Below, piece after piece: positions 128 to 59,931 of a stretch of DNA of 63,171 nucleotides (position 1 is the first letter of the stretch; the number at the start of each line of letters is the position of its first letter). The notes beneath the pieces were generated by a model. That model was not told the DNA's origin, searched no databases, and was given only the letters and a program-made list of their open reading frames with translations. The DNA comes from a virus, in IMG/VR virus record IMGVR_UViG_3300028392_000001, positions 1 to 63,171 of that record; one strand, given 5' to 3'. A program made the position numbers and the translations under genes.

Positions 128-1604
128 AGACTATCAGGGCGAATACCAAAGATGGAGATACGGAGGGTTTAGATTTAAGCAGTTTCCTACCAACATGGAC
201 TACTCTAAAAACTTTAATGTATTTAGGTTTTTTAGAAAGCCAACTATTGGATTTAAAGAAAACCTAGATTTTCCAACAAGGGTTACCTCAAGTTTATCAA
301 GACCTATTTCTCAAAGACTTTCTCCAAACCTTAAGTCTTTTAGACCATTTAACTATTTTGACCTTTCCGATGAGAACGGAGCTATAAAATATCTTTTTGC
401 TTCTTTTGTTTCTGGTATGGGAGACAATCTTTATGCTTTTGCTGAAAACGACATTTGTCTTTTAATGACAGACAAAAGAACGCTTAGCGACCTTAGTGGA
501 AATGAAATAGCGCTAGTTGCTACTTCTGGACCACAGTTAATTCGTCAGCAGATATGGTTAAGAGAAAGTAAAATGAAAGGCATGCCTAGTGAATGCTGGC
601 GTTCTTTTGCTTCATTTGGAGGTATTGGTTTTTGGGCTAACAGAAATGGAGTTTTTGCTTTGTCAAACAATAAAGTTTCTGACATAACAGAAGGTTATGT
701 TCAAAAGTTGTTTCCTAATATACTCGATTTTATTGATGAAAACTGTAAACTTGTTGGTGGTTTTGACACGAGATTTGAAGAGTATTATTTACTTTTTAAA
801 GTAATTCCTTTCGTAATAGAATATAATGTTTTTGCTGGAGTAACAACTGTTAATCTTCAGCAAACAAGCTCAACTGTTTTTACAATAACAGAACCTGCTG
901 GCTCACACAGTGCGTATGGTGTTGTTCTGAAAAATATGGCAGGCTCGACAGATTATTATTTTATTGTAAATGCACATAATAGTATTATATTTGTGGATTA
1001 TGAAGCAAGTACGACAATAACTACTGTTTCTACAAATACAAACTTTAAAGTTTCAGTAAACAGGGAAACTGGAGCATATACCATAACTTCATTTGTTCCG
1101 TCTTCTGTTTTTAAAGAGTATTTGTATGTTTTTTCCGCAAGAGAAGACAGCAAGGGATGGATGGGAGAATACGACTTTACTTTTGATAAAATGGCTTCTG
1201 AAGATGCTTCTACCTTTATAAGTAGAAGTCTTAAATCTTTTCAGATACATAAAGGATTTAAAATAAATGGACAAAGCATAGTATTTAAATCTGTATCTCC
1301 GTTTGCACCCGAAGTTGATTTTCAAAAAGAAGCTAAGCGTGTTGCTATAAATTCAAATAGAAAACCTCTTAATGGTCAAAGTTCCGTAGTACAACTTCTT
1401 TATTACAATGGAACTTCTTTTGTTTTGTTTTCAAGTTTAACATCTGCTCAACTTAAAGATTATGGCTATTACGAGCAATGGATTCCGGTAGACGGAAGTA
1501 GCAAAAGACTTCAGGGGTTAGTTTTTGGAGTGGTGGTTCAAGATTCTGACGAATCAGACTTTTCTTTAATTGACATAATTCTTCAATATCAAAGAATAAA
1601 ATAA
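1..1604 (+). CDS. muzzle-like tail protein, C-terminal part (continues from 59921)
   Basis: This is the C-terminal third of a 1575-residue protein that starts at 59921 and crosses the circular join. Codons here begin at base 3, and the frame stays open to the TAA ending at 1604. A reading frame starting at the ATG at 195 would be only an internal Met. The protein follows three ring/connector-sized genes and precedes internal-protein genes, the place of the muzzle (tail-nozzle) protein in crAss-like podoviruses. The sequence is rich in beta-strand-like segments with aromatic residues, as expected for a virion structural protein. No enzymatic motif is visible. The stop overlaps the next gene's start by one base. 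The role is inferred from position and size. Confidence 0.75.
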   Translation, partial: TNTSLLYGDYFPQKNFIVRPLNWKSNTKASEQGQPFFTQYDEDYQGEYQRWRYGGFRFKQFPTNMDYSKNFNVFRFFRKPTIGFKENLDFPTRVTSSLSRPISQRLSPNLKSFRPFNYFDLSDENGAIKYLFASFVSGMGDNLYAFAENDICLLMTDKRTLSDLSGNEIALVATSGPQLIRQQIWLRESKMKGMPSECWRSFASFGGIGFWANRNGVFALSNNKVSDITEGYVQKLFPNILDFIDENCKLVGGFDTRFEEYYLLFKVIPFVIEYNVFAGVTTVNLQQTSSTVFTITEPAGSHSAYGVVLKNMAGSTDYYFIVNAHNSIIFVDYEASTTITTVSTNTNFKVSVNRETGAYTITSFVPSSVFKEYLYVFSAREDSKGWMGEYDFTFDKMASEDASTFISRSLKSFQIHKGFKINGQSIVFKSVSPFAPEVDFQKEAKRVAINSNRKPLNGQSSVVQLLYYNGTSFVLFSSLTSAQLKDYGYYEQWIPVDGSSKRLQGLVFGVVVQDSDESDFSLIDIILQYQRIK

Positions 1605-2293
1605 TGAAAAATTTAAAGTTTTTTCCTATCTGCGATGGAGGAATCATTGGAGGAATATTTGGTGGAATTACAGGTATTGCTCAGATGATTGGAGGTGCAG
1701 TTAGAAATGCTAAAGCAAACAAAATAAAGCCACCGCTAGAAGACTCCGAGCAAAGAAGTAACTATATTGACATATTAAGAAAGTCTCGTGGATACGAAAC
1801 AGGTTCTGCTGTAAGCAGAATACTTGGAAATATTGGCATAGGAGAAGCTACTGCTGATGCAGGAATTGTTTCTGCCGGAGGAGGAGATGGAGGCGCAACT
1901 CTTCAAGCTTTAATAAGAACAAACAGAAATACTGGCTCTGCTTATAATGAAGCACTTTCTGTTGCAGAACAAAACTCAAAGTTTTATCAAGGAATGGCAA
2001 CTTCAGTACTTGACCAAATTGCACAAAGAAAACTTGAGCTTCAAATGTATGATTATGCAACTGAAAAAGCAGGAGCACAAGCAATGTTTGCTGCTGGAAG
2101 TGACAATCTTGCTGGAGCCTTTTCTGGAAACTCAGGTAAAAGCTCTTCTGTATCTAATGGAAATTCAGGCGCTGCTTACATATCAAGTAAAAACACAACC
2201 AGCAATGGAGGCTTTATTGATTCCGGAGCTGGCGGTTCTCAAGTTCCTAGCAACAACTCAATAAGCGATGTAAACTATGGCGGTTACGCTTAA
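1604..2293 (+). CDS. small internal virion protein candidate with N-terminal Cys signature
   Basis: A 229-residue protein starting on the last base of the muzzle-like gene. It begins MKNLKFFPICDGG and then has a Gly/Ile-rich stretch (GGIFGGITGIAQMIGG, about residues 13-30) that could insert in a membrane. The middle is Ala/Gln-rich and probably helical, and the tail is Gly/Ser/Asn-rich. A glycine-rich hydrophobic start followed by helical, low-complexity sequence suits an internal or ejection protein of a podovirus. The neighbours (muzzle-like gene, two large internal-type proteins) agree. The start carries the hydrophobic-PIC-acidic signature shared with capsid, scaffold and other proteins here. 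Function is inferred. Confidence 0.7.
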   Translation: MKNLKFFPICDGGIIGGIFGGITGIAQMIGGAVRNAKANKIKPPLEDSEQRSNYIDILRKSRGYETGSAVSRILGNIGIGEATADAGIVSAGGGDGGATLQALIRTNRNTGSAYNEALSVAEQNSKFYQGMATSVLDQIAQRKLELQMYDYATEKAGAQAMFAAGSDNLAGAFSGNSGKSSSVSNGNSGAAYISSKNTTSNGGFIDSGAGGSQVPSNNSISDVNYGGYA

Positions 2294-2341: not shown

Positions 2342-4537
2342 ATGCAAAATATCCAAAATAAGCCCATTTATTTGCGTTTTTATGCCATTTCGGACGATGG
2401 TAATACAAATATACAAACGCCCATGACGGGCGATAATAACGCAAATAACGATAACGGGTTGTCTGCTGACAATTACGCAAGTAGTTTTGTCTCTGGCGTT
2501 AGTCCACAAGCTGACGGAAAAGATGAAACTTTTATAACTCCTACTGACATAGGGGCTGTTTCTTCTCCAAACGAGTATGACAACTTTTATTCTAATTACC
2601 TTTCTACTCCTCAATCAAATCTTCCTAGAGAATCAAATGCTGACTATTTTGTTAATCCTAATCGTTCAGTTAATTTAGGAACATATAGTGGAAAAGTAAT
2701 TGGCAGCGTTCCTATCTTTGGAGGAGGGATGGCTGTTAGAATACCTTTCGCAGCTTATGCCAATAAGCGTAATGAGCTTGAGGCGCAGGCAAGACTTCAA
2801 ATGCAAAGACTTGCCAAGCCACTTGACTACACTGTCCCAACGACAGATGCTAGGTATCAACAGAAATTTGCTAATACTTTTTTAAACAGCGTAAATTCTT
2901 TTATCGACAGAGCTCAAAAGGCTTATGGCAATAAAGCTTTTAGAATGCTCGAAAATCCTAGTACTCAAATAGGAAAAGAATACAAGCAAACACTTGAAAA
3001 CTTTAAAGCAGTAGGTGACGATATAAAGTCACTTGTTTCAACAGCTGCTGAAGTTGACAAGTCTGAAAAGTCAGGAGCGTATTTAACTCCCGAAGCATAC
3101 AAACTTAAAAATGAAATTTTAGGTGGAATTGCTGACTTGGATAAAAACGGCTATTCCTCTGTTAATATAGCTGAAAAGCAATCTAAGCTTAAAACTCACA
3201 TGAACCTGTCGCAAATACTTGACAAGGAATGGAACAACATAAAGCAAGATTTGCAGTCAACTTACAATGCTGGCAAAGTTGACGGAAGTATAAAGGGAAG
3301 CTATTATGACTTTCTTGTTCAGCAACAAAAAGAGTTTCTTTCAAGTGGAAGAGCTGAGGATATTGCTAAGTCATTAGCCACTCAGCATCCAAATACTATA
3401 TTTGACGAAGAAACAGGAAGACAACGTTCTGACCAGCCATTTACAACTAAAGAAGCTAAAGACTACATTTCTTCTATGTTTGGCGACAGGATTAAACTTG
3501 AAGGAACAGTTGCTTACAATCAAGCTAAAAACAAAACTAACATATACACAGGAAACCCTAAAGATGTTTCTGCTTCAGGTGACTTTGTTATAAGCACGTA
3601 CAACAATCTTGCTAATGGAGATGTTTTTGTTGTGGATAGTAAAAACAAAATAGTTCCAGGTAAAGGCGGAGTTATGGTATATAATGACGGAGTGGCAAAA
3701 ATGATTCCTTTTGGCGATAAGAGAGCTATTATGGAAGCCATTGTAAACATTTCTTCTAAGCAGCCTAGCTTGTGGGGAGCAGGAACAGAGTACACTGTTG
3801 CTGACGTAAATGCTCACATGAAGTCTAACTGGGATAATCTTTATAACAAGAATACCAAAAACAACACTCCAGACTATAAAAACCTTTTGCCTGCTGTCAA
3901 CAAAGATATTACAAGTAAAGTTAACAACGTAGCATATAATTATGGAATTGTTCCTATATCTCCAGGATTAGATTTGACAGGAGCTTCTGTTGATAACTCG
4001 GGAAGACTATCTTTTACAGCTAAGGTTGGAAACAACGAGGCGCTAAACGTAGGGGTTCCTATTCCAGCGTCTTCTCTTTCTGGGGAAGAAAAAGGAATAC
4101 TTGACAATACTTACAATGCAGCAACTGCTGGCAATTTTGTATTTGTTCCTGGAGCAAAGTACAAGCTTGACCCCGATGGAAATGATTATCAAGTTATTCT
4201 TTCTAATGGCAAAGTATTTCAAACTGGCGACCACACCTTTCTTATACCTAAAGAATCTATTGAATCTCCTATTAATGGAGTTTACAATAATGCAGTAAGG
4301 TCTTCTGTTTCAAAAACAAGTTCTTCTCAAGGAAGTCAAAGTACTCCAAATACAGCTGGGAAGCCAAAGCAAATTGTAACAATGGTAGACCCAGCAGTTG
4401 TTTGGTCTAAACCTACCTCGTCTATAAATATTTCAGGAGTTGTGTTAAAGTCTTCTGACGGAACAAACTATGTAACACAAGATGGTTCCGCTAGATACGT
4501 TAAAACAGCAACTGGAAGTTTCAAAAAAGTTCAATAA
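2342..4537 (+). CDS. 731-residue internal (cargo) virion protein candidate
   Basis: The 731-residue product has an acidic, Asn/Asp-rich N-terminus, a helical middle (about residues 130-330) and a Ser/Thr-rich C-terminus. I recognise no catalytic motif. Its place between the small internal protein and the giant polyvalent protein suggests a cargo or ejection protein of the virion. The first 40 codons lie inside a palindromic repeat (2353-2462), so the repeat encodes the start (NKPIYLRFYAISDDG). The segment LRFYAISDD also fits the N-terminal signature of other virion proteins, with Ser for Cys. The start is the only ATG near the open-frame boundary. The gene is certain, its role inferred. Confidence 0.75.
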   Translation: MQNIQNKPIYLRFYAISDDGNTNIQTPMTGDNNANNDNGLSADNYASSFVSGVSPQADGKDETFITPTDIGAVSSPNEYDNFYSNYLSTPQSNLPRESNADYFVNPNRSVNLGTYSGKVIGSVPIFGGGMAVRIPFAAYANKRNELEAQARLQMQRLAKPLDYTVPTTDARYQQKFANTFLNSVNSFIDRAQKAYGNKAFRMLENPSTQIGKEYKQTLENFKAVGDDIKSLVSTAAEVDKSEKSGAYLTPEAYKLKNEILGGIADLDKNGYSSVNIAEKQSKLKTHMNLSQILDKEWNNIKQDLQSTYNAGKVDGSIKGSYYDFLVQQQKEFLSSGRAEDIAKSLATQHPNTIFDEETGRQRSDQPFTTKEAKDYISSMFGDRIKLEGTVAYNQAKNKTNIYTGNPKDVSASGDFVISTYNNLANGDVFVVDSKNKIVPGKGGVMVYNDGVAKMIPFGDKRAIMEAIVNISSKQPSLWGAGTEYTVADVNAHMKSNWDNLYNKNTKNNTPDYKNLLPAVNKDITSKVNNVAYNYGIVPISPGLDLTGASVDNSGRLSFTAKVGNNEALNVGVPIPASSLSGEEKGILDNTYNAATAGNFVFVPGAKYKLDPDGNDYQVILSNGKVFQTGDHTFLIPKESIESPINGVYNNAVRSSVSKTSSSQGSQSTPNTAGKPKQIVTMVDPAVVWSKPTSSINISGVVLKSSDGTNYVTQDGSARYVKTATGSFKKVQ
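2353..2462 (+). repeat. palindromic repeat element, copy A (within a CDS)
   Basis: The left arm contains AAAATAAGCCCATTTATTTG followed by CGTTTTTATG. The right arm contains AACGCAAATAACGATAACGG, whose reverse complement restores TTATTTGCGTT. The left core matches copies B-E elsewhere. This copy lies at the start of the 731-residue virion protein and is translated in frame. Confidence 0.75.
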
Positions 4538-10500: not shown

Positions 10501-13500
10501 GAATTAAAGTCACCTGAAGAACTTTTGTCTGACGTAGGCTTTACTTTTCACAGACCAAAGACCCTTGAAGACCTTCTTGTTTTTAAACAAGACTTTAGAA
10601 ATGGAGAAGTGCTTTGTACATTCAATAGTCCTTCTTCTAGAATGGACAGAAACTTTATTTTCTGGATAAGAAGAAACGAATACTACTCTGTTCTTCCAGC
10701 CGATGAACTTACGCAGGAATATCTAAAGGAAGACAATCAAGGAGCTAAACTTTGGAGAAATTATCTCGATTCCAATGGAAAGAAAAATACTGACGGCACT
10801 TATGACATAAAAGGCATCGTTCCGTCAAGGCAAGACCCTTACGGAACTTCCTCAATGAGTGTTCAGGTTAATAAGTCAAACGGTCTTGTGTCTATTAAAA
10901 ACAGATATAATCATACAGTTAATAATCCAGATTCTACCTTTGGAAACGACTTAAACAGTATTGTTGACGGACTTGAAGATTCTGTTTTTAAACTCGAAAA
11001 CATAAAGAAATCTCAACAATCTTTTGATTTGCCTGAAAATATTGCGTCTGATTCTAAAGGAAGGCTAATGAGATTCGATTTTGAAGAAAATGGAGTTTAC
11101 TTTGGTAAAAATTCTTATTTAAAGAATGGACAAATAATTACTTTAGATAAGAACAGTCAAAGAATGTTTGATGTTTTTCTTGTTGATTCTAGCACAAAAA
11201 CAATTAAAGATTTAAGTATTTTAGAAAATGAACTTCTTCCTTCAATAACTAATTTTTTTGAAAATAAAATAGAAAAAATTGTTTTTGAAGGAAACAAAAT
11301 AATAGCAAAATCAGGTAGCGAGTATCTTGAAGTTGAGTTTGATAAAGATAAAAATTTAACTAGACTTTTTTCAACTACAAAAACCATAGGTGACTATTTT
11401 CTTTTCAATAACAAATCTCTTTTACAAATAAGTTTACCTAATATACAAAGCATAGGTGACTATTTTCTTTTCAATAACAAATATCTTTTAGAAATAAGCC
11501 TACCTGATATACAAAGCATAGGTACCGATTTTATTTTCAATAACAACTCTCTTTTAAAAACAAGCCTACCTAGCGTACAAAGCATAGGTAACTATTTTCT
11601 TTATAATAACAAATCTCTTTCAGAAATAAGCATACCTAATGTACAAAGCATAGGTAACGATTTTCTTTCATATAACAAATCTTTTTCAGAAATAAACATA
11701 CCTAATGTACAAAGCATAGGTAACAATTTTCTTTCACATAACAACTCTCTTTCAGAAATAAGCCTACCTAATGTACAAAGCATAGGTGACTATTTTCTTT
11801 ATAATAACAACTCTCTTTTAGAAATAAGCATACCTAATGTACAAAACATAGGTAACAATTTTCTTTCACATAACAACTCTTTTTCAGAAATAAGCATACC
11901 TAATGTACAAAGCATAGATGACGATTTTCTTTTTTATAACAAATCTCTTTCAAAAATAAGCCTACCTAATGTACAAAGCATAGGTAACTATTTTCTTTTA
12001 AATAACAACTCTCTTTCAGAAATAAGCCTACCTAATGTACAAAGCATAGGTGACGATTTTCTTTTTTATAACAAATCTCTTTCAGAAATAAGCCTACCTA
12101 ATGTACAAAGCATAGGTAACAATTTTCTTTTAAGTAATAATAAGTTTAGAAATAAAATAAATTCAAATAGAGAATCAAAAGAAAATACCAAACTGCTTCT
12201 CAATACAAACCCTATATCAATTTCCGACAAGTTCAACAAGTTTAATCACTTTAATAACGAAATAGACTTAGGTAAAGAAGATAGCAATCCTAAAGTAATA
12301 TTCTCAAAACGAAATTCAAAGTCAGACCCAAGTCAAGAAATTGCAATGCTTAAAAACAAAGCAACAGGTAAAACAATTTCTGGAGAAGACCTAAAGCAAC
12401 TTCTTTTTACTATTGATGCAAATGACTTTGTTTCAAAAAAAGATGCTTCTCTGTTTGCTAAGAAAATCGTTGGTACGTGGAGAGAAATGTTTATAAAGGA
12501 GAACATGAAAGGTTCAAGTCTTCTTAAGTCAAAAGAGATACTTAGACTCACTTACTTTACGACCAAACAAAAGATTGCTGACTATGCTAAAGATATTGAC
12601 TTTATTGAGAAAATGGCTAGTGACGCAGAGTACAGGTCTTTAGTTGCTCAGGCTAACATTAAGAGAAGACAGGCGTTTCAGAAGTATAAAAGACTGTTCG
12701 ACAAGGATGTAGAGTTTTACAGAGCATTACAAACCATATCTAAAATAAACCCAAAAGAGTTTACTGAAAACAATGTGCTTAAGCAGTTCATAGATATGCT
12801 TTCCAAAGACCCTCACAATGTAAATATAGAGGAGTTTAAGAAGTATGCTGAAGGTATTAACTTTCATCATATAGAATATAGGAAGCAAAATCTTGATATG
12901 GATGAAAGCGAGTCTTCAGAGCACGATGATGAGTTTGAGCGCCAGGAGCTTATAAACTACATTAAGTTTATGAAGATAAACGCCAACAACGCTATTGGCA
13001 CAAGGCACAACACAGATTTACTGAGTTCTAAAATACTTAGCATTGACCCTGAAGAACTTGACAATAAGTCAATTAGGCAGTTAGCTATTCATATTCAAAA
13101 AATTGTAAACAGCAAGTCAACAAACAGGGCTGGTGCTCAGTTCTGGTTTAGGTATAATGCGGCTATGATGGCTGACGAATTAGAAGATTCAATGAGCGAA
13201 GTTTGGAATAACATCCTCAACAAGAAGGTAGCTTCTGGTGCAATAAGAGATTTCTTCCCTTACGTTACTAACGGTAAGCTTCACTGGATGGGCAATGTTT
13301 CTGTTTTGTCAATGAAAGACCAGCTTAATGTACTTGATGGGCTTTCAAAGGATTACTCAGGTAGCTTTGTTAAAAAGATATTTGAACCAATAGATAAAGC
13401 TTATGACGATTTCAGAAGGACTTATGCACTTGCTGCTGCAACAATAGACAATAACGGCTACTCTGTTTCCGATATGCACGAGATTGGAGTTCACTGGCTT

Positions 13501-22202: not shown

Positions 22203-22532
22203 ATGAAAAAGTTTTTAGCTTTCGCAGCCATCTGCGCTGCAACGTTTACAACGCCTCCAGGCGTAGCAACTGAGATTCCAGGAATCATCAAATGCACTGG
22301 AACAAATTCAGCAAGAACAGATGATTTGACTGTAACCATTGTTCAGAACTCTGTTCCTAATCAGGGTTTTGGTGACTACAGTGGATGGAACTATTTGATA
22401 GTAACTTCTGACCCTGCCGTTATTCTTTCAATGAAGCAGAATCCTGCGTTTCCAAGTGACGACACAAAGAAGATTCCTGCCAACTTTGTTAGTGCTCAGG
22501 GCGCTTTGGATGCCTACAATGCTTTGACGTAA
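22203..22532 (+). CDS. small virion (decoration-like) protein with signal-like N-terminus
   Basis: A 109-residue protein starting MKKFLAFAAICAATF, which fits the hydrophobic-AIC signature of the capsid and scaffold genes and could also read as a signal peptide. The rest is beta-like and Pro/Thr/Asn-rich. The end (GALDAYNALT) resembles that of the next gene (NVALAAINAWL). A strong terminator follows. Small abundant proteins of this size are often head decoration proteins. Function inferred. Confidence 0.6.
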   Translation: MKKFLAFAAICAATFTTPPGVATEIPGIIKCTGTNSARTDDLTVTIVQNSVPNQGFGDYSGWNYLIVTSDPAVILSMKQNPAFPSDDTKKIPANFVSAQGALDAYNALT

Positions 22533-26297: not shown

Positions 26298-26957
26298 TTA
26301 AAACGGCAAGTCGTCTTCTACGGCTCCAGGAACTGAAGGAGGTGCGGTAAAAGACGGAGCGCTTCCCGGAATTGGAGGAGCTGATGGTGCCGAAGGAGCA
26401 GCAGGAGCTGCTGGCGCTGACGGAGCTGCTGGAGCACCAGCAGGTGCTGAAGGAGTTGCTATCTGATTAGGAGAATAAACAGGCTTCGTAGCAGGAGGCG
26501 CAGCAGCTTGCTCTGCTTGAGCGTTTTTCATTGCTATAATTTGAGCTACTTCCCATTCAGGATTACAAGAGCCTACTTTCTTAGACTTAGCAACGTCGTA
26601 CATGAAGTACGTCTTTCCTGGAGGTTTTCCAAGAAACTGAATTCTCAAATAGTCACCTGGATTAAACACAGATAACTTCTCATCAAGAACCTTGCTTGCA
26701 AAAACAGTAAGCATCTTTCCTTCGTTAGTAAATATGTAGTACCTTACGTACTTGCCATCAGTTCCTGGAAGTGGTCGAGGATTTGTTCCCTCGAATCTTT
26801 TCCCAATAAATCCGAACAGCTCAGGACAAGCCTGCTGATTCCATTTATCTACTTTAACTCCACCGGAAGATGGAGCTTGTTCCCAATCATCGTCTGAGCA
26901 GGTTGGGATAAAGGCAAGTACTGCCATTGCTAATAAGCTAAACTTTCTTTGTTTCAT
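26298..26957 (-). CDS. SSB-like protein with lipoprotein-like N-terminus
   Basis: A 219-residue protein. The core (about residues 35-140) is beta-rich and could be an OB fold. It is followed by an Ala/Pro/Ser linker and the acidic tip EDDLPF, the hallmark of bacterial and phage single-stranded-DNA-binding proteins, where the tip recruits replication partners. Its neighbours (methyltransferase, primase-helicase) support a replication role. The odd part is the start: MKQRKFSLLAMAVLAFIPTC followed by SDDDW reads as a lipoprotein signal with a Bacteroidota surface-export patch, and fits the signature of the virion proteins. No other good start exists before the core. SSB identity rests on the tip and layout. 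Confidence 0.6.
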   Translation of the reverse strand: MKQRKFSLLAMAVLAFIPTCSDDDWEQAPSSGGVKVDKWNQQACPELFGFIGKRFEGTNPRPLPGTDGKYVRYYIFTNEGKMLTVFASKVLDEKLSVFNPGDYLRIQFLGKPPGKTYFMYDVAKSKKVGSCNPEWEVAQIIAMKNAQAEQAAAPPATKPVYSPNQIATPSAPAGAPAAPSAPAAPAAPSAPSAPPIPGSAPSFTAPPSVPGAVEDDLPF

Positions 26958-45114: not shown

Positions 45115-45509
45115 TGCTTCTGTTTTTTAATTAATAGTTCCTTAAGTTCGGTTAAATCTACTTTTGCGGTTTTTTCTAGATCATCTACTTTAAGGTTAAT
45201 TAAAGTTACTGTTCCATCAAGATTATCATGAACATTTTGAATAGCTCTCCATTCGTCAAGAGAAAGGTCAATTTTTCTTGCTTCTTTAATAAAAGATTCT
45301 TTTATAATCTCATAGCAATTTGTTATTCCATTTCCTTCTATTTCTGTTGTGTATTTTCTTTCGTCTATCCATCTTCCAACAGCACATCTTCTTCCATCAG
45401 AAGTAAGGTAGCGACAGTTTCCATCCTGAATAGCTACAGTAAAAGGGTCTTCAAAGTATGGCTTGAGGGTTTTAAGAATGAACTTTTGTTTTTTAAGATT
45501 TGTGCTCAT
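45111..45509 (-). CDS. phage conserved-type unknown protein with CAVG motif, 132 residues
   Basis: The segment GNCRYLTSDGRRCAVGRWID (about residues 30-49) resembles a motif I recall from uncharacterised proteins of many phages (C-x-Y-x(4)-G-x-x-CAVG-x-x-I). Their function is not established to my knowledge. The C-terminal part is helical. The start is preceded by the leader TTAACCTTTTAAAAAATTAA. Confidence 0.6.
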   Translation of the reverse strand: MSTNLKKQKFILKTLKPYFEDPFTVAIQDGNCRYLTSDGRRCAVGRWIDERKYTTEIEGNGITNCYEIIKESFIKEARKIDLSLDEWRAIQNVHDNLDGTVTLINLKVDDLEKTAKVDLTELKELLIKKQKQ

Positions 45510-45527
45510 GATTAATTTTTTAAAAGG

Positions 45528-45866
45528 TTAAGAGTATATTTTTTGCAATAAAATAGTTTTTACTTTACTCGTGGCATCAATGTATTCCTTATCTGTTTCA
45601 AAAGCACTGTAAAAGGGAACATGGTAGATGTAAGCTTGGTCGCATTTTTCAGGCAGAACTATGTAGTTTTTTTCTTCAATATTTACAAGCGTGTAACTAT
45701 ACTTTTTGGCTTTGTCTGCTTCAGATATTCCGTCGTTAAGACTTTTGACGTCTTGTTGACTAAAGTTATCGCTAACAACTTTTGCTCTACGAGCTTCGTT
45801 AAAAAAGAAAACATCTTTCTGATTGCTTTTTTCAAAAGAAAGTATGCCGTAAATTAATAGTTTCAT
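45528..45866 (-). CDS. unknown early protein, 112 residues
   Basis: The product starts MKLLIYGILSFEKSNQKD and has alternating beta-type segments. Its stop codon is part of the AACCTTTT leader motif of the following gene. Its own start is preceded by AACCTTTTTAAATCTTTAAT. No family is recognised. Confidence 0.6.
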   Translation of the reverse strand: MKLLIYGILSFEKSNQKDVFFFNEARRAKVVSDNFSQQDVKSLNDGISEADKAKKYSYTLVNIEEKNYIVLPEKCDQAYIYHVPFYSAFETDKEYIDATSKVKTILLQKIYS

Positions 45867-51685: not shown

Positions 51686-53926
51686 ATGTTCTTTCAACCA
51701 AGACCAAACAGACTTACAGACACAAAAGACGAAGCATATCATGTCAACTGCGCAAGATGGGCTTTGACAAGCACTTCGTATCAAGACTATATTAATTTTG
51801 CCTATCGTGGTCTAATTAATTGGCAGTTTTATAGAGGTAATCAATGGATACTAGACGAGGACCTTGACCCGTTTTTACTTGACGAATCAGGAGAAGTTCG
51901 CAACAGGATTAAGTTCGTTCAGAACATAATCTTAAACTATGTTCAGTATTTCAGAGGAACTGCTATAAGGATGGATGTAAATGGAAAAGTAATATCTACC
52001 TCAAGACATTCCACTAATAGAAAGATACAGTACATGGAAAAAATGCGACACTTAGCAAGAGTTGCTTCTACAAGTAATTTTGCAAGTGCTGCTATAAACA
52101 AGGCTTATGGAATTGACGAGGATGAGCAGGAGGCAATGCAGAGTGCTCAAAATCTTTGGGTTGACGAACACCTCGAAAGAATAAATGCCTTTTCAAGAGC
52201 TATGTCTGACCGTAATGACTTTGAAACACTTAAGCTTCAAGCTGCAGAGCACATGGCTTTAGATGGCTTATGTGTTTCTTTTGAGGATACGTCTAGAGGT
52301 ATGCAGACGTTTACAAACATAGACCCTAAAAGGTTTATTTGGGATAGAAGCGCCCGTAGACTTGATTTGCTTGACGCTCAGTTTATGGGTGACTTTTGGT
52401 TTGCCGCTCCTACCGAGTTGTATGAAAAGTATCCCAAGCTTACAGAAGCTGATAAACAAAACATTGAAAAAGCAACAGCAATAAACTTAGCTCCAACAGG
52501 TTTTCACTCTTATATGTTTGGTCTTAATAAAAACATTATAAACAGAGCTCCTGTCTATAGGATTTACTGGCAAGACATTGACAGGTCTGAGTGGGGATGC
52601 TGTTCAGATGATTATGGCTATCCTGTTTTGGTTAAGATTGAAAAAAACGGAAGATATACAAAAAAAGACCTTATTACTCCTCCTGATGGGTTTTTTGAAG
52701 CAGAACTTGAAAATGTAGGTGTCGAACCTAAATACAGAAATAAAAGTATTACTATTGATAAACAGCAAACAAGATTCTGTGAATATATAGAACCAATGTT
52801 TATAGCTGGAAGCACTGGAGACCCTATTGTTTTGGACTTCGGAACTGTTCCATTCCAAGAAACTCATTCTTACGTTAAGAACTTTACTCCGTATCCATAC
52901 AAGGTTTGGTGTTGGTCTTTGGTTGACGGAGAGCCTATGGCGCCTGTTGATAATATAATAGACCCTCAGAGATTAATTAACAGATATAATTCAATGGGAG
53001 AAGCTCAGGTTAACAACTCTCGTGGGAAGGGAACTATTTACGACAAGGACATGGTTGACTCTCAAGGTGGAGAAGAGGAGTTTTTAAGAAAGATAAACAT
53101 GAGTCAGCCTATTGGCGTAAATGCCGCTGGAAGACTAAATAACTCTGTTATGTCTTACGATTCCAATATAAGTAATTCTACTTTTGGAATAATGAAGCTT
53201 GCTCAGGACATGAAAGGAATAGCTGATAACCTTTTTGGAGGAGGTGAAGCTTTGCTTGGTCAAGGTGGAGGATATAGAGTTTCTGTTGGAGCTGTGAAGC
53301 AAAACCTTGACCAAGCAACTACAACACAAGAACCATTCTTTTATGGACTTCTTAAGTATTTGCAGCAAATGCATCATTCTATCGTAAACAGAGGTATTAA
53401 AATAGCATTAGCAAATCCTGGACAGCTGGCAGCTATTGTTGGCGATGATGGAGTTGCAGATTTTAATCTTTCTCCAGAGATGATATTTGAAGAGTTTGGT
53501 TATGAACTTAAAGCTTCAACAAACAGGCAAGAAGAAGTTGAGCTTGCAAACCAAATGATACTTCAGTTATCTTCTCCTAATGTTGGCTTGATAATTCCTA
53601 CAATAGCAGCTAACGCATATGGAAACTGCGACCTTGCCGATGTTGGTATGCTTATAAGAAAGTCTATGGCTGCAAAAGAAGAAGCCGCAAAACAACAAGA
53701 AAAAGCTGATAAGGTAAAAACTGATGCAGCTCAAAATCTTGCAGCAATAAGTACCGAACAGCAAAACAATGCTCAAGATTTTGCATTCTCTCAACAGCAA
53801 CATGAAGCAGAGAAAAACAGACAAACACAGCTTGACGCTAAAGCTTTACAGGTTGCTGGAGATATGGCAAAAACAGAAGCTCAAACAAATGTACAAAAAA
53901 TGCAGCAACCTACTCCAGAACAATAA
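51686..53926 (+). CDS. portal protein
   Basis: The 746-residue protein is recognised by place (terminase-portal-scaffold-capsid) and by portal-like features: an early NFAYRGLINWQFYRGNQW segment, NIDPKRFIWDRSARRLDLL, and a helical, Gln/Ala-rich C-terminal region (about residues 650-746, QQEKADKVKTDAAQNLAAIS) matching the barrel or crown of large podovirus portals. It forms the dodecameric channel at one vertex through which DNA enters and leaves. There is no N-terminal signature. Confidence 0.8.
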   Translation: MFFQPRPNRLTDTKDEAYHVNCARWALTSTSYQDYINFAYRGLINWQFYRGNQWILDEDLDPFLLDESGEVRNRIKFVQNIILNYVQYFRGTAIRMDVNGKVISTSRHSTNRKIQYMEKMRHLARVASTSNFASAAINKAYGIDEDEQEAMQSAQNLWVDEHLERINAFSRAMSDRNDFETLKLQAAEHMALDGLCVSFEDTSRGMQTFTNIDPKRFIWDRSARRLDLLDAQFMGDFWFAAPTELYEKYPKLTEADKQNIEKATAINLAPTGFHSYMFGLNKNIINRAPVYRIYWQDIDRSEWGCCSDDYGYPVLVKIEKNGRYTKKDLITPPDGFFEAELENVGVEPKYRNKSITIDKQQTRFCEYIEPMFIAGSTGDPIVLDFGTVPFQETHSYVKNFTPYPYKVWCWSLVDGEPMAPVDNIIDPQRLINRYNSMGEAQVNNSRGKGTIYDKDMVDSQGGEEEFLRKINMSQPIGVNAAGRLNNSVMSYDSNISNSTFGIMKLAQDMKGIADNLFGGGEALLGQGGGYRVSVGAVKQNLDQATTTQEPFFYGLLKYLQQMHHSIVNRGIKIALANPGQLAAIVGDDGVADFNLSPEMIFEEFGYELKASTNRQEEVELANQMILQLSSPNVGLIIPTIAANAYGNCDLADVGMLIRKSMAAKEEAAKQQEKADKVKTDAAQNLAAISTEQQNNAQDFAFSQQQHEAEKNRQTQLDAKALQVAGDMAKTEAQTNVQKMQQPTPEQ

Positions 53927-53989: not shown

Positions 53990-55306
53990 ATGAAACTTCA
54001 AAACAATAGCATACTTCGTTTTAGACCAGTATGCGAAGAAACAGTAGTTGAATCTACACAGCAAGAAATTGATGCACTAAATAAAACAAATGTAGGCGTT
54101 ACAATAAACGTAGAAGATACACCGCCAGCAGCTGCAGCAACAACAATAGAAGCGCCTGCAAGTGTTTCTCAAGAAATCGTGAAGAATATTGGAGTTGCAA
54201 TGCAAAATCCAGTTGGAGATAATATTGCTTATGTTTTTGATATGGTTGAGCTTCACCCTGAAATTTACCATTCAGACGCATCGGTAAAAGCATTAGTTGA
54301 CTTAGCAATTAGCAATGGTATAAATGTAGATATATCAGGTGCTGCCCAAAAGAAATCTGCTGATTCAAGCGGCACTACGCAAGACGGCAAGAAAACTCCA
54401 TTTGGAAAAGGAACTAAAACAACATCTCCTGCTGAAATAAAAGTTGAACAGATTCCAACAACTTTAAAAACAATGTATAACATTGAAGCTAAGACTCCAG
54501 AAGAAGGTATTAGCAAGTTGATTGAGTTTGCCGACAAACAAAGAGCAAATGCACAAAAAGCCGGAGAGTACAAAAAGAAAGCAGAAGACTTTGAGACGCT
54601 GTTTGACAATATGCCAGCCGAGTTGCTTATTCCACTTCAAACCTGGATTAACAACGGTGACTATAAATCTGAACTTAAGAATGTTGCGGATGGTGTAGTA
54701 GATGTTACAAAAGACTTTGACAGTCTTTCTGGCGAAACGTTAAGAACTACCGTAAACAGGCTTGTGCCAGCAATGTCGTTTTCAAAAGAAGAATTTGAAG
54801 ACAAAACTGATCCTCGAGTTTCTTCTGCAATAGCTTTAGCAAAGTCTGCCTTTGAAATTAAAAAACAGGCACTCGGTTCTCAAAGAAAAGCTATTGAAGA
54901 GAGAACTAAAGAAAAAATTAAACAAGAAAAAGCCTCAGTTGCAACAGCACTTGATAAGCTAAAAGAAGAATACGAAGAATTCACAGGCGACCCCCGCTAC
55001 GTAAAAATAGCCGAGTTGCTCGAATCACCTTCAAAACTCTTTTCCGCATTTTACGAAAATGACGGAAGAGCAAAACCAGATAGCGCCAAGCGACTAATGT
55101 TTGCGTTATTTGGAGAAGAGGAACTTAGTTCTGTTACACAAACCGTTGAAAAGAAAGCAAATAACATTGCAGCAGCTACGGTTATAAAAGCAGAAAAAAG
55201 ACGGTCTCCACAAGCGGTGACTCCTCAGCAGCCAATACATAGCAATGGGACTAGTAGTCCAGTCGTGGCAGAACTTATGCCAAAGAAATCACCGTTTGAT
55301 GAATAG
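53990..55306 (+). CDS. scaffold / capsid assembly protein candidate
   Basis: A 438-residue acidic, largely helical protein placed directly before the capsid gene, the classic scaffold position. A coiled-coil-rich segment lies at about residues 160-340 (NAQKAGEYKKKAEDFETLF, IKQEKASVATALDKLKEEYE), and the tail is basic and Pro-rich (ending PKKSPFDE). It would guide prohead assembly and then leave or be degraded. The start MKLQNNSILRFRPVCEE carries the virion N-terminal signature. No protease motif was seen in it. Confidence 0.7.
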   Translation: MKLQNNSILRFRPVCEETVVESTQQEIDALNKTNVGVTINVEDTPPAAAATTIEAPASVSQEIVKNIGVAMQNPVGDNIAYVFDMVELHPEIYHSDASVKALVDLAISNGINVDISGAAQKKSADSSGTTQDGKKTPFGKGTKTTSPAEIKVEQIPTTLKTMYNIEAKTPEEGISKLIEFADKQRANAQKAGEYKKKAEDFETLFDNMPAELLIPLQTWINNGDYKSELKNVADGVVDVTKDFDSLSGETLRTTVNRLVPAMSFSKEEFEDKTDPRVSSAIALAKSAFEIKKQALGSQRKAIEERTKEKIKQEKASVATALDKLKEEYEEFTGDPRYVKIAELLESPSKLFSAFYENDGRAKPDSAKRLMFALFGEEELSSVTQTVEKKANNIAAATVIKAEKRRSPQAVTPQQPIHSNGTSSPVVAELMPKKSPFDE

Positions 55307-55322
55307 TAATTACAACCAAAAA

Positions 55323-56651
55323 ATGAAAAACTTTAAAAAAATTATAGGCATCTCTTTAGCGTTCGTGGCAGTATGCGAAGGCGGAGCTAGCCTTTACTCC
55401 CCTGGAGCAAATCCTTCAGGCAAGTATCAGAACGCAAACCTAAACGCACTCGGCAGTCAATATGCCGCAACCTACGGGCACGGCTCGACATCTTTGATGG
55501 GTCGTGAACTTCAGCAACTAATTTTTGATGCTGCACCTCAACAGTATTTTGACTTGAAAATTTTGGCTTTAACACCTCCGGAGCAAGTTAACTCTGATGA
55601 GCATTTTTATCACGAGATGGGGTACGGTAGAGATGCAATAACCTTAGGAACTCTTGGAACAATCGGTGCGGCAGTAACTCAAACAATTCCAGTTGTTTCA
55701 ACTGACGTTGTTACGCCTGACACAATAATTGCTCACTTTGACGATGTTACCAAAGCAACTGTAATTGATGTTGATTCCGGAGCAAGCACCATTACCATTA
55801 AGGCAATGAGTGGACAGATTCTTCCTGCATTGAGTGTTGCCGATTCCGGAAAGTATTTCAGTAACGTTTCTCCTGTTGAAGCTGACGGCTTGGACTACAT
55901 TTCTCAATACTATCGTATTGACACAATTGAGCGTAGCAATTACGTTCAGATGCTTGTTAAAGCTCAGCGTTGGGGTAAAATGGAACTTACAAAGTATCAA
56001 AGAGCCGGTAGCTTAAACAGCTATTTGACAATGCAAAAAAGACGTATGATGGACCAGTTTAGAGCTGATTTATCAAACATTTACTGGAACGGTGAGCAAG
56101 GTGAGGTTACTTTGAAATCTGGAGTTGTTGCAAAAACTGCAGGTGGATTGTATCCTATCATGCAATCAGCCGGCTCTCCTTTCAGCAACACCACTGTTGT
56201 AAATTCTCCAGCAGCTTTGGAAGAACTTGCGTTGTCAACTGAATTTGAACAGTACGGAGCAACAAGATTCCTTTATGGAACGCCTCGCGCTTTGCTTGCT
56301 TTGAGTAATCAATACAAGCGTCCACTTACGCGCTATACTCCGGACAATATGCTTGCTAACCTTCGATTGAACTCAATCGACATAGGAAGTAGCAAAATTG
56401 TATTTGTTCCTATTAAACGTTTTGAAGACCCAGCATCCTTTCCTAAGGCTTGGAGAAGCAGGTTGTTCTTGATTGACCAAAAGAACATTCAGCCTGTTTA
56501 TTTCCTTCCAGAGGAAATGGGAGACACCCTTCCAAGAGTTAACAACGGTACGTTGAAAAACTATACCGACTCTTGGGTAAGTGCTACGTGGTCAATGAGA
56601 TTTCACAATCCTTTGGCTTGCGGTTATCTTAACGTAACTAACTTGGGATAG
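55323..56651 (+). CDS. major capsid protein
   Basis: A 442-residue protein following the scaffold-like gene. The start was set at 55323 because an in-frame ATG at 55245 lies inside the upstream gene. Its size, its position and sequence such as YYRIDTIERSNYVQMLVKAQ with a C-terminal HNPLACGYLNVTNLG suit an HK97-fold capsid protein. It begins MKNFKKIIGISLAFVAVCE, which looks like a signal peptide or lipoprotein leader, odd for a capsid protein and shared with other genes; it may be removed during maturation. A strong terminator follows, as expected for a highly expressed gene. Confidence 0.78.
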   Translation: MKNFKKIIGISLAFVAVCEGGASLYSPGANPSGKYQNANLNALGSQYAATYGHGSTSLMGRELQQLIFDAAPQQYFDLKILALTPPEQVNSDEHFYHEMGYGRDAITLGTLGTIGAAVTQTIPVVSTDVVTPDTIIAHFDDVTKATVIDVDSGASTITIKAMSGQILPALSVADSGKYFSNVSPVEADGLDYISQYYRIDTIERSNYVQMLVKAQRWGKMELTKYQRAGSLNSYLTMQKRRMMDQFRADLSNIYWNGEQGEVTLKSGVVAKTAGGLYPIMQSAGSPFSNTTVVNSPAALEELALSTEFEQYGATRFLYGTPRALLALSNQYKRPLTRYTPDNMLANLRLNSIDIGSSKIVFVPIKRFEDPASFPKAWRSRLFLIDQKNIQPVYFLPEEMGDTLPRVNNGTLKNYTDSWVSATWSMRFHNPLACGYLNVTNLG

Positions 56652-56682
56652 TCCAAAACTAACTACAATCTGCTCCTTGTTT

Positions 56683-56714
56683 GGGAACCGAGAAAAACTC
56701 GGTTCCCATTTTTG
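56683..56714 (+). terminator. intrinsic terminator after the capsid gene
   Basis: A perfect 10-bp stem GGGAACCGAG / CTCGGTTCCC with loop AAAAA, then ATTTTTG. It lies 31 bases after the capsid stop. Confidence 0.92.
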
Positions 56715-56753
56715 CTTTAAGTATAACAACATTTCATCTTAACAAACTATCTT

Positions 56754-57656
56754 ATGAAAACACTTTCTTTTATTGCAATTTGCGAAACAAATCCTAGCGC
56801 ACCAGGTAGTGCTCCTTTACAACCAGGTCAAGTTTCTAATCCAGATGTTAATAATCCAGCACCACCAAATCCTGTAAGAACAAAAGAAATAATCGAACCT
56901 ACAGTAAACATTGTTTCTGAAGAAAAAGAGCAGCAGGAAAGTCAGCAAATTATTCAAATGACATCTTCAGATTTTACAAAGCTTGTTTCTGCTTTGTCTG
57001 AAGGCTTTAAAGAAAGTACAAAAAACAATCCTGTTCTTGATGTTGACAGGATTATCAGAACAGTTCTAGACCAAGGTTCTGGAGCAACAAGTACTAATGC
57101 TGAAATGATTACCTATGATGAAATTGACACTGAGGATATTCTTGATGCTCCAGTGTTGTTTTTCTCTTATGCCTCTTCAACAGTAATTTTTGATGACTAC
57201 AAAAATGGAAGCGTTATAAGAAGACCTTTTTCTGAACCAATCAGGTTTAACAATATAATGAGGGTTACAACTTCCGGAAAAGTAACAAAAGCAGCAACTA
57301 CAATGTCTAGCTATGTTTGTTGGTCAAAGAAGGTTGCAGAGTGGCTTCGCAAACACACAAACTACAATGTATTGTTTTTTGAGCAAGCATCTGATGCAAA
57401 ATCTATTGACAAGAGTGGGGCAGATGCACTTCAATACGCAAGCAATCTTGTTTCATCTTATGATGAGCATTCAATAAAAAGAAATTGTATTTCTCATGGA
57501 GTTAAAATTGATACAGCAGATGTTTCAGTTTTAAGACACAGACTTATTGTTGCTATTGCCGGAAGATACGAACAAGAACAAAAGAAGCTTACAAAAGGGA
57601 AAACACTTTCGTTTAAAGCAGAAAGAGAAAACTTTGAAAGTATAGAAAAAGCATAA
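56754..57656 (+). CDS. head-associated protein with N-terminal Cys signature, 300 residues
   Basis: It starts MKTLSFIAICETN, then a Pro/Asn-rich linker (about 15-45), a helical stretch and a folded part (APVLFFSYASSTVIFDDYKN onward) with a basic helical end. The short hydrophobic start with Cys-Glu matches the capsid and scaffold leaders. It lies between the capsid terminator and the ring-like genes, so it is probably a head or head-completion component. No family is recognised. Confidence 0.65.
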   Translation: MKTLSFIAICETNPSAPGSAPLQPGQVSNPDVNNPAPPNPVRTKEIIEPTVNIVSEEKEQQESQQIIQMTSSDFTKLVSALSEGFKESTKNNPVLDVDRIIRTVLDQGSGATSTNAEMITYDEIDTEDILDAPVLFFSYASSTVIFDDYKNGSVIRRPFSEPIRFNNIMRVTTSGKVTKAATTMSSYVCWSKKVAEWLRKHTNYNVLFFEQASDAKSIDKSGADALQYASNLVSSYDEHSIKRNCISHGVKIDTADVSVLRHRLIVAIAGRYEQEQKKLTKGKTLSFKAERENFESIEKA

Positions 57657-57667
57657 AGTAACTACCA

Positions 57668-58429
57668 ATGGTAACATACAGCTATGTAAAGGGTCTAATG
57701 TTTGCTGCGCTTGATGCAGAAGGTTCTGATTTTTTCAGGGACACTCAGGACATTATGCCAGCGTTAAACTATGGAATAGACTTTCTTATGATGGCTGTTA
57801 ATCAAATACGTGAAACCAACAAAGTAAGTAACGAGGTATTTAAAGAGTTAAGGTACAACAGAATCTATCAAACATCAAAGTTTTCTCGTATTACGATTGA
57901 CAATTCGGTGTTTAGTATAGATGCTGTTGTACCTCTTCCTATTACAAATCCTCTTTGGACAAAACAAGCAAACAGCACTCCAGAAAAAAGCATATTGTTA
58001 AACTCGTATATATTTGTAGAAAGCAATTTTGATTCGTGCGGAAGACTTACTTCTGAAGAGTGGCAAACAAATAGATTTAACCCGTTTGCTCCAGGAGCAG
58101 AGTATAAAGATTATGTTGACCTAAAGCCAACTGACACTTGTTCTATAAAATTTGGCTATCAAGATGCTTTAAATTATCAAAATGCAAATTTAGACATTTT
58201 TGAAATAGAAGTAAGACCAAAGCTTGTCGAAAAGCCTGTTGCTATTGTCTATGTCAAAAATCACCCAAGAATAACTTCTACGTCTGACAATATTTATTTT
58301 AGTAACAACATAGTTAACTTTATTGTTCAGAACGCACTTAACTACATATCATACCAGCAAGGTGACAACACAACACTTTGGAATGTTTCCGAGCAAGATA
58401 GAATAGCGCTTTTAAACTTTGTTAAGTAA
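57668..58429 (+). CDS. ring / head-tail connector protein candidate, 253 residues
   Basis: The first of three genes of 231-266 residues between the head and muzzle-like genes. It starts MVTYSYVKGLMFAALDAEGS, with helical ends and a beta-rich middle, a common adaptor layout. It shares one base with the next gene. In crAss-like podoviruses this position holds the stacked ring proteins below the portal; the assignment here is by order and size. Confidence 0.65.
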   Translation: MVTYSYVKGLMFAALDAEGSDFFRDTQDIMPALNYGIDFLMMAVNQIRETNKVSNEVFKELRYNRIYQTSKFSRITIDNSVFSIDAVVPLPITNPLWTKQANSTPEKSILLNSYIFVESNFDSCGRLTSEEWQTNRFNPFAPGAEYKDYVDLKPTDTCSIKFGYQDALNYQNANLDIFEIEVRPKLVEKPVAIVYVKNHPRITSTSDNIYFSNNIVNFIVQNALNYISYQQGDNTTLWNVSEQDRIALLNFVK

Positions 58430-59124
58430 TGCCTACTTACGGAATGTTTTGCAACGATGTGTTGCAGTCAATACAGCAACTTGGAGACGATAGAAAGGTT
58501 ACCTTTGAGCAAATTGTTCATTGGACTCAGGTTTGCGTAAACCAACTAAGAACCCAGTCTGTTATAAAGCACAGAGATAGCGGAAGGTATCTTAACCATT
58601 ACGTTATTGAAGTTGAATCAAGTACAACCAAAAAGTTCTTTACACTTCCAGCTCTTATTGTTGATTACGACAACGATATAGGAATAGACTGGATGTCTTA
58701 TGAAAAAAAAGAAATTTGCGATAGACCTATAACTTTTCAAAGAACAGATGCTGCCGAAGTTAAAAATGGTTCTCTCTACGACCAGCCATACCTTGCTCCA
58801 AGTCCCACAAATCCTTACTTTTACAGAGAAGGCAGTATAATACATTTAATAGGTGTTGAATGTGTTGAGTTTAAAAGAGTAGATGCTGGACTTAAAACAC
58901 TAATAACTCCAGACATTATTTGTAACATTTATGACGACATAGGTATAGACGAAGGACTTGAAAGAGTTTTGTTTGAAAATGTTTTTGCACTAGCAAGAAC
59001 AGCTTTACTTATAACTCAAGAAAAGCAAAATGACGGCTCTTCTGCCGGAACTCAAATAAGAACAACAGACGCAATTACAGCTCAAAGGTCTCAAGCTGCT
59101 CCACAACAAGAACAACCTCAATAG
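58429..59124 (+). CDS. ring / head-tail connector protein candidate, 231 residues
   Basis: It starts MPTYGMFCNDVLQSIQQLGD, with helical N- and C-terminal parts and a beta-rich core, ending in a Gln-rich tail (SQAAPQQEQPQ). The N-terminus (short helix, DDRKVTFEQIVHW) is typical of adaptor proteins that bind the portal. It lies six bases before the next ring-like gene. Position-based assignment. Confidence 0.65.
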   Translation: MPTYGMFCNDVLQSIQQLGDDRKVTFEQIVHWTQVCVNQLRTQSVIKHRDSGRYLNHYVIEVESSTTKKFFTLPALIVDYDNDIGIDWMSYEKKEICDRPITFQRTDAAEVKNGSLYDQPYLAPSPTNPYFYREGSIIHLIGVECVEFKRVDAGLKTLITPDIICNIYDDIGIDEGLERVLFENVFALARTALLITQEKQNDGSSAGTQIRTTDAITAQRSQAAPQQEQPQ

Positions 59125-59130
59125 TAAGAA

Positions 59131-59931
59131 ATGGATACTTCAGAAAAAATAAGTGTTAACTTAATTGTTGCTGATGTTGTTCAGCAAAATGGAGATACTG
59201 CCTTTAAAGACAAGTCAAGAGGATATTATGTCGGTAGAATTCAGGCTGGTCTTGAAAAACTTGCAATAACAACCTATTACGATGATGTTACTCTTGACCT
59301 GTTTGATTGGAAAGCTGGATGGGTAAATGCTGGAAAATACAACTTACTTCTTCCTCCAAACTGTTTTGATTTAAAAAAGATTTATCTTTTTAAAGGTCAG
59401 TGTCAGTGTAACAAAAAAGGTTGCAATGACTGTAGAAAAGTTTTTGGAGGCGACTTTGTTAAAGTAAACTACAAAGTAAACTATAATCGTTTTGGAGGCT
59501 CTGACAGAGCCACTGCTGATATAACAGAAGATTCTTGGCGAGACCCTGAGCTTCAAAGAGGAAGGCAAATTCCATACAGACTTTACTACGGAAATGTTCA
59601 AAATGGAGTTTTAGCTTTAAGTGAAAATTCTGAACACTACGAAAACGTAAGACTTATATATAAAGGTTTTGGTGGTACAATAGGAAACGAGCCAGTCATA
59701 CCAAGAGAGTTTAGAGAGGCTCTTATTGATTTTACTCTTGAGCAGTTTTACGCTTGGAAAAAATCAACAGACAGAAACTACAGAACCGACTGGATGGACA
59801 TAAATAACAAACTTAACTCAGCAGACCCTATAAATCCAGGGTCTTGGCTTATTGCAAAAAGAGTAGCTATTAGACTTCAGTCTTGGAAGAGAGATGCTAT
59901 TAATAATTATCAAAGTAATTATGAATTCTAG
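59131..59931 (+). CDS. ring / tail stabilisation protein candidate, 266 residues
   Basis: It has a helical start, a beta core with a Cys cluster (CQCNKKGCNDC, about residues 91-101) that could bind a metal or form disulfides, and the segment VIPREFREALIDFTLEQFYA near residue 190, similar in style to tail-completion adaptors. It overlaps the muzzle-like gene by 11 bases. The third of the ring-like set. Confidence 0.65.
   Translation: MDTSEKISVNLIVADVVQQNGDTAFKDKSRGYYVGRIQAGLEKLAITTYYDDVTLDLFDWKAGWVNAGKYNLLLPPNCFDLKKIYLFKGQCQCNKKGCNDCRKVFGGDFVKVNYKVNYNRFGGSDRATADITEDSWRDPELQRGRQIPYRLYYGNVQNGVLALSENSEHYENVRLIYKGFGGTIGNEPVIPREFREALIDFTLEQFYAWKKSTDRNYRTDWMDINNKLNSADPINPGSWLIAKRVAIRLQSWKRDAINNYQSNYEF

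Follow-up and report, generated by a model that had tools for sequence, protein, structure and literature searches.

Why should several proteins with otherwise unrelated bodies begin with one and the same short N-terminal leader, and what might such a leader do? The question is raised by a 63,171-nucleotide stretch of viral DNA (IMG/VR record IMGVR_UViG_3300028392_000001, positions 1 to 63,171; the whole stretch analysed is hereafter called the window), which repeats ∼120 bases at both ends of the record. The window virus has a bacterial host and is a distant kin of the gut crAss-like phages, a likeness that was judged on three characters of a Crassvirales-like podovirus, i.e. an HK97-fold major capsid protein (MCP) near the crAss type, a P22-like portal and a crAss-like gene order.

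Carriers of an N-terminal tag in the window

The sequence-only reading had quoted six similar N-termini, all of which were found at their starts, and the shared leader that it described is real, but its set missed a seventh carrier encoded on the opposite strand (26298-26957, −). It had also defined the pattern by a Met-Lys start; the leader is indeed common to the carriers, but its Cys or Ser lies anywhere from residue 10 to 20, preceded by 9 to 19 residues, and it is therefore the right end, not Met-Lys, that fixes the motif. The core in the seven window proteins reads F-x-[AP]-[IVT]-[CS], usually with D or E next. The pattern F.[AP][IVT][CS] falls within the first 26 residues of seven genes and at 0 of 17,450 positions elsewhere in the window proteins; a further occurrence was seen in one 44-aa ORF antisense to a helicase gene, which is probably spurious. 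Taken alone, this count is weak because the pattern was picked after the data were seen, and a blind motif search with a reduced alphabet returned nothing.

Three carriers occupy the head-gene region on the + strand. The protein at the scaffold position (gene 53990-55306) begins with MKLQNNSILRFRPVC-EE (53990..54034), the MCP (gene 55323-56651) with MKNFKKIIGISLAFVAVC-EGG (55323..55376) when read from the ATG at 55323 (the longest ORF runs from 55245), and the head protein after the MCP (gene 56754-57656) with MKTLSFIAIC-ETN (56754..56783). Three more + strand genes encode a small protein rich in glycine that is likely ejected or internal (gene 1604-2293; MKNLKFFPIC-DGG at 1604..1633), a 731-aa likely ejection or cargo protein whose tag has Ser for Cys (gene 2342-4537; MQNIQNKPIYLRFYAIS-DDG at 2342..2392), and a 109-aa protein (gene 22203-22532; MKKFLAFAAIC-AA at 22203..22235). 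The carrier on the − strand is an SSB-like protein (gene 26298-26957; MKQRKFSLLAMAVLAFIPTC-SDDD at 26898..26957), named for its C-terminal DDLPF and its place among replication genes. Most carrier roles were assigned by position; the low-confidence model of the window MCP gave an HK97-type fold match to the phicrAss001 and VP1 capsids. Read by itself, the SSB-like leader (26898-26957, −) looks like a Bacteroidota lipoprotein signal, and its homologue in the sister phage described below is without such a signal.

Wherever the type of a tagged protein is known, it is a capsid or capsid-interior protein, while the portal, neck, tail, packaging proteins and replication enzymes are untagged. The P22-like portal (51686..53926, +; PF16510 at 1e-14), which served as a control, is untagged in the window and in the sister phage G001; so are three proteins at neck or ring positions (57668, 58429 and 59131, spanning 57668..59931, +), whose homologues in G001 and in the more distant relatives G003, G004 and G005 are all untagged. 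The window gene order approximates that of phicrAss001, i.e. scaffold position, MCP, next protein, ring, stabilization and cargo, and with the MCP fold match this makes up the likeness between the two phages; the carriers sit at the capsid and cargo positions of that order, while the portal, ring, stabilization and terminase proteins are untagged. Among the phicrAss001 proteins themselves no shared N-terminal tag was detected. A giant protein of 3741 aa (window 4558-15783) contains BspA-type leucine-rich repeats (PF13306, 4e-32), which are unusual in a probable virion or injected protein.

The sister phage and its own version of the tag

The closest known relative, the 66-kb contig L003 (phage G001), was obtained by an MCP-alignment search of viral contigs; it is placed as the sister of the window phage with supports of 100/98 in the MCP tree and 100/99 in the portal tree, and the two MCPs share 57% identity. 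In the phage collection, no close isolate was retrieved with the MCP, portal, TerL, helicase and small proteins as queries, the window gave no sequence match to the phicrAss001 MCP or portal, and an MCP profile search yielded no relatives in genome contigs.

G001 carries a tag of its own, MK[KN][IL]xFxF[IV]G with small variations, at the start of 10 genes. It was also found blind, if modestly, as I.F.F.G in five genes versus a shuffle maximum of four; on the window alone, the blind motif search was not significant. Seven of the 10 G001 carriers pair off one to one with the seven window carriers. Not one shared gene is tagged in a single phage only, and ∼16 other shared genes, among them those for TerL, the portal, the ring-position proteins, the giant protein, helicases and a methyltransferase, are untagged in both, an agreement with P = 4e-6 (7/7 among 23 pairs). 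The remaining three G001 carriers are small proteins lacking window homologues (20607, 21079 and 44879). Because the sister phage is a test independent of how the window pattern was chosen, the case is strong, and the coordinated tag is well supported.

The homology of the carriers holds without the tags in five non-MCP pairs, i.e. the scaffold-position protein, the protein after the MCP, the 1604 and 22203 proteins and the SSB-like protein. In G001 the scaffold-position homologue begins with MKRLNLIFIS-EE (those of L001, L004 and G005 are untagged), the MCP with MKKIIFSFIG-ET, and the protein after the MCP with MKKLKLSFIG-LD (phmmer 2e-39 without tags; the L001 and L004 homologues are untagged). 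The 1604 homologue carries MKNIRFNFIG (1e-11 without tags; untagged in G004 and G005), the 22203 homologue (45387-45725) MKKIKFAFIG (1e-07 without tags), and the SSB-like homologue MKKLKLIFIG-EG (untagged in G003 and G005). The syntenic counterpart of the 2342 protein is tagged MKIKFIFIG-EN, a pairing based on position, size and 24% identity only. An assembly error is unlikely, since the tags were seen again in further contigs: L040, a second contig of the same G001 phage, has the three tags covered in its fetched part, and L054, with a portal identical to that of the window, has the scaffold tag.

Between the sisters, the tags have diverged in concert. Tag position 8 is A or P in the window versus F or Y in G001 (P = 5e-5), and position 10 is C (once Ser) versus G (once Ser) (P = 2e-4). 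The earlier emphasis on Cys therefore does not hold, Gly taking that place in 9 of the 10 G001 tags and Ser in the tenth. That seven or more unlinked genes, with no synonymous sites in common, changed in step points to a common reader rather than to copying between genes.

The tag is a prefix added to complete proteins, because untagged homologues begin directly past it: untagged MCPs start M-[SAP]-(T)LY.. at a point that aligns with residue 22-23 of the window MCP and residue 12-13 of the G001 MCP, and the SSB-like homologue of G003 begins directly after the tag position. Structure models were too weak for placing the tag (pLDDT 50 for the SSB-like protein and 56 for the MCP). Third codon positions vary within the tags, which have no common nucleotide motif, indicating selection on the peptide and ruling out an RNA-level motif; an excess of ATC codons in the tags was not clear of the start-region background. 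A host-wide motif was likewise rejected, the G001 nucleotide pattern being present in 4 of 295 sampled genomes, all of one bacterial class and once in each, one of the four being the genome on which the sampling was centred.

A possible route into the prohead and competing explanations

About an even chance is given to the reading that one ancestral peptide tag is recognized by one partner changing along with it and most likely steers proteins into the prohead. Several unrelated proteins would have acquired the tag before the two phages diverged; in each phage one common partner would read it, tags and partner later changing together; and the tag would direct its carriers into the growing prohead by binding either to the core of the scaffold or to the inner face of the capsid. 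The scaffold, the MCP, the protein after the MCP, the two ejection proteins, small proteins specific to the lineage and the SSB-like protein would in this way come together in one assembly. The tag might later be removed, probably just past the small residue (Cys, Ser or Gly), which the mechanism would not require. A capsid-targeting role had been suggested by the sequence-only reading and fits best, apart from its focus on Cys, as the scaffold, the MCP, the protein after the MCP and two likely ejection proteins are tagged while the portal, neck and tail are not. Counting against it are the giant 3741-aa protein, which is likely a virion protein and is untagged, and the SSB-like protein, since SSB is normally a cytoplasmic replication protein. 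Tentatively, a general sorting code may be considered, in which one N-terminal tag, read by a partner or by itself, gathers capsid, scaffold, injected, accessory and DNA-binding proteins, and tag and reader co-evolve such that the code differs between sisters. The tag looks like an unreported sorting tag for head building.

A comparable system is the capsid-targeting sequence (CTS) of T4, a 10-residue N-terminal leader that can bring varied unrelated cargo into the head, the first 10 residues of IPIII being sufficient for head targeting (PMC9026906). T4 ipII and ipIII start MKTYQEFIAE, and, as here, an MK-hydrophobic leader with F-I precedes otherwise unrelated small internal proteins; in the two phages a short N-terminal leader likewise occurs on several unrelated head or internal proteins (7 in the window, 10 in G001), and G001, like T4, tags small proteins. 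The statement that the tag resembles the CTS in idea and differs in sequence was thus right about the idea and understated the resemblance (MKTYQEFIAE versus MKKIKFAFIG and MKTLSFIAIC). The two are nevertheless not homologous. The CTS marks internal proteins, whereas the tag here is also on the scaffold, the MCP and the SSB-like protein, which counts against the prohead-targeting reading; the obligatory Glu at the CTS end is replaced by Cys, Ser or Gly; and T4 has a gp21-type protease, whereas none came up here among the listed Pfam and PHROGs families. Cleavage of the T4 type after Glu was rejected, as about half of the tags lack that residue. Membership in the T4 CTS family is not claimed, because the Glu site is not general and no gp21-type protease was found.

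The most direct alternative, which we regard as unlikely, is a cleavable propeptide: a single phage or host protease would recognize one site in every carrier and cut there, in the simplest case right past the small residue (F-x-[AP]-[IV]-C or F-x-F-[IV]-G), and the leader would exist to be removed rather than to target its carriers. Right-end anchoring with variable leader length in the window and the immediate divergence of the sequences past the motif would suit such a site, a matched change in all carriers is what an altered protease specificity would produce, and cleavage would leave the MCP with an N-terminus like that of its untagged relatives. In the giant phages phiKZ and SPN3US, head propeptides are mostly 111-254 residues long (20 and 24 in two proteins), and they are cut past A-x-E by a recognisable protease, the portal also having one (PMC10052503). 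Those propeptides resemble the tags in being one type of N-terminal extension on the MCP and abundant ejection proteins, plausibly tied to head maturation, but the tags have only 9-20 residues and the portal has none. An A-x-E or S-x-E end is not general here, an S-x-E-like one being present only in the G001 scaffold, and the cut-after-Glu rule of T4, phiKZ and SPN3US fails, with Glu next in 3 of 7 window and 5 of 10 G001 tags. Among the matches listed, up to 25 families for each Pfam or PHROGs scan of 45 window and 44 G001 proteins, there was no known prohead protease family. As a substrate, an SSB-like protein would be unexpected.

An expression effect, with the nascent peptide or the early codons boosting strongly expressed proteins, appears rather improbable. 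High abundance is expected of the MCP, scaffold and SSB, the leaders open with Lys codons favouring early translation, and the MCP genes have a strong-expression codon bias; however, residues 4 to 10 are conserved and the nucleotides are not, tagged and untagged genes were not consistently told apart by start-region folding energy, codon usage is unremarkable in other carriers such as 2342 and 28184, and the untagged relatives produce the same proteins. Strong expression as the common factor was rejected, as the codon bias is found in the MCP only.

Mutual binding of the tags, with the hydrophobic alternation of [IL]-x-F-x-F-[IV]-G forming a self-matching β strand that clusters the carriers with no separate receptor, is very doubtful. 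Such alternation is present in the G001 tags, and self-binding would account for one tag version per phage and for its presence on scaffold, MCP and cargo alike; yet the window core, with its Ala or Pro, alternates more weakly, and the tag region of the MCP model (pLDDT near 30) lends no structural support.

Hardly credible is that the tags are lipoprotein or secretion signals or, as had been proposed earlier, mimics of them: Bacteroidota export signals do combine a hydrophobic leader with Cys and then acidic residues (PMC5080379), several window leaders resemble short signal peptides of this kind, and the SSB-like leader end C-SDDD is near the SDDDD of Bacteroides fragilis surface lipoproteins (PMC5080379), but Cys is always preceded by I, V or T and never by the G, A or S of a lipobox; Cys itself is replaced by Ser in one window tag and by Gly or Ser in all 10 of G001; a signal peptide would be longer and less charged than most G001 tags; and the cytosol is where the scaffold, the MCP and the SSB-like protein work.

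If prohead targeting is the right reading, crAss-related phages would have independently invented a capsid-targeting code and extended it to the shell, the scaffold and an SSB-like protein. The SSB would then be predicted inside the virion, and virion cargo would be predictable from sequence alone; proteins could be loaded into such capsids by means of a short peptide, and the joint change of tag and reader could be studied across at least seven unlinked genes.

History of the tag among relatives

Among the relatives checked, the tag is confined to two phages, the window virus and G001. Relatives with readable starts at the scaffold, MCP and following head protein, including G003, G004, G005 and ∼10 representative loci out of 52 fetched, are untagged. 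Since the two tagged phages are sisters and the other relatives checked lack the tag, the history is most simply explained by a single gain on their shared stem, though the tree alone cannot separate gain from loss. Pattern scans of viral contigs yielded no new phage with a recurrent tag.

Three further observations were made. In an unrelated phage, on the 5.7-kb contig L074, a gene 5′ of the terminase (L074:190-678) starts with MKKIVFQFVGEE, which matches the G001 tag, and no second start of this kind is visible on the contig. The portals of both tagged phages (window 51686-53926; L003:6491-8737) have longer branches than most untagged relatives, which suggests that evolution sped up or the host changed at the time of the tag's origin. 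The closest untagged relative (G003, contig of L001) has a distinct shared motif: in L067:813-2321, [KR]xx(x)YAHN[PS] recurs in five consecutive small ORFs 5′ of the terminase gene, in most of them 10-24 residues after the start.
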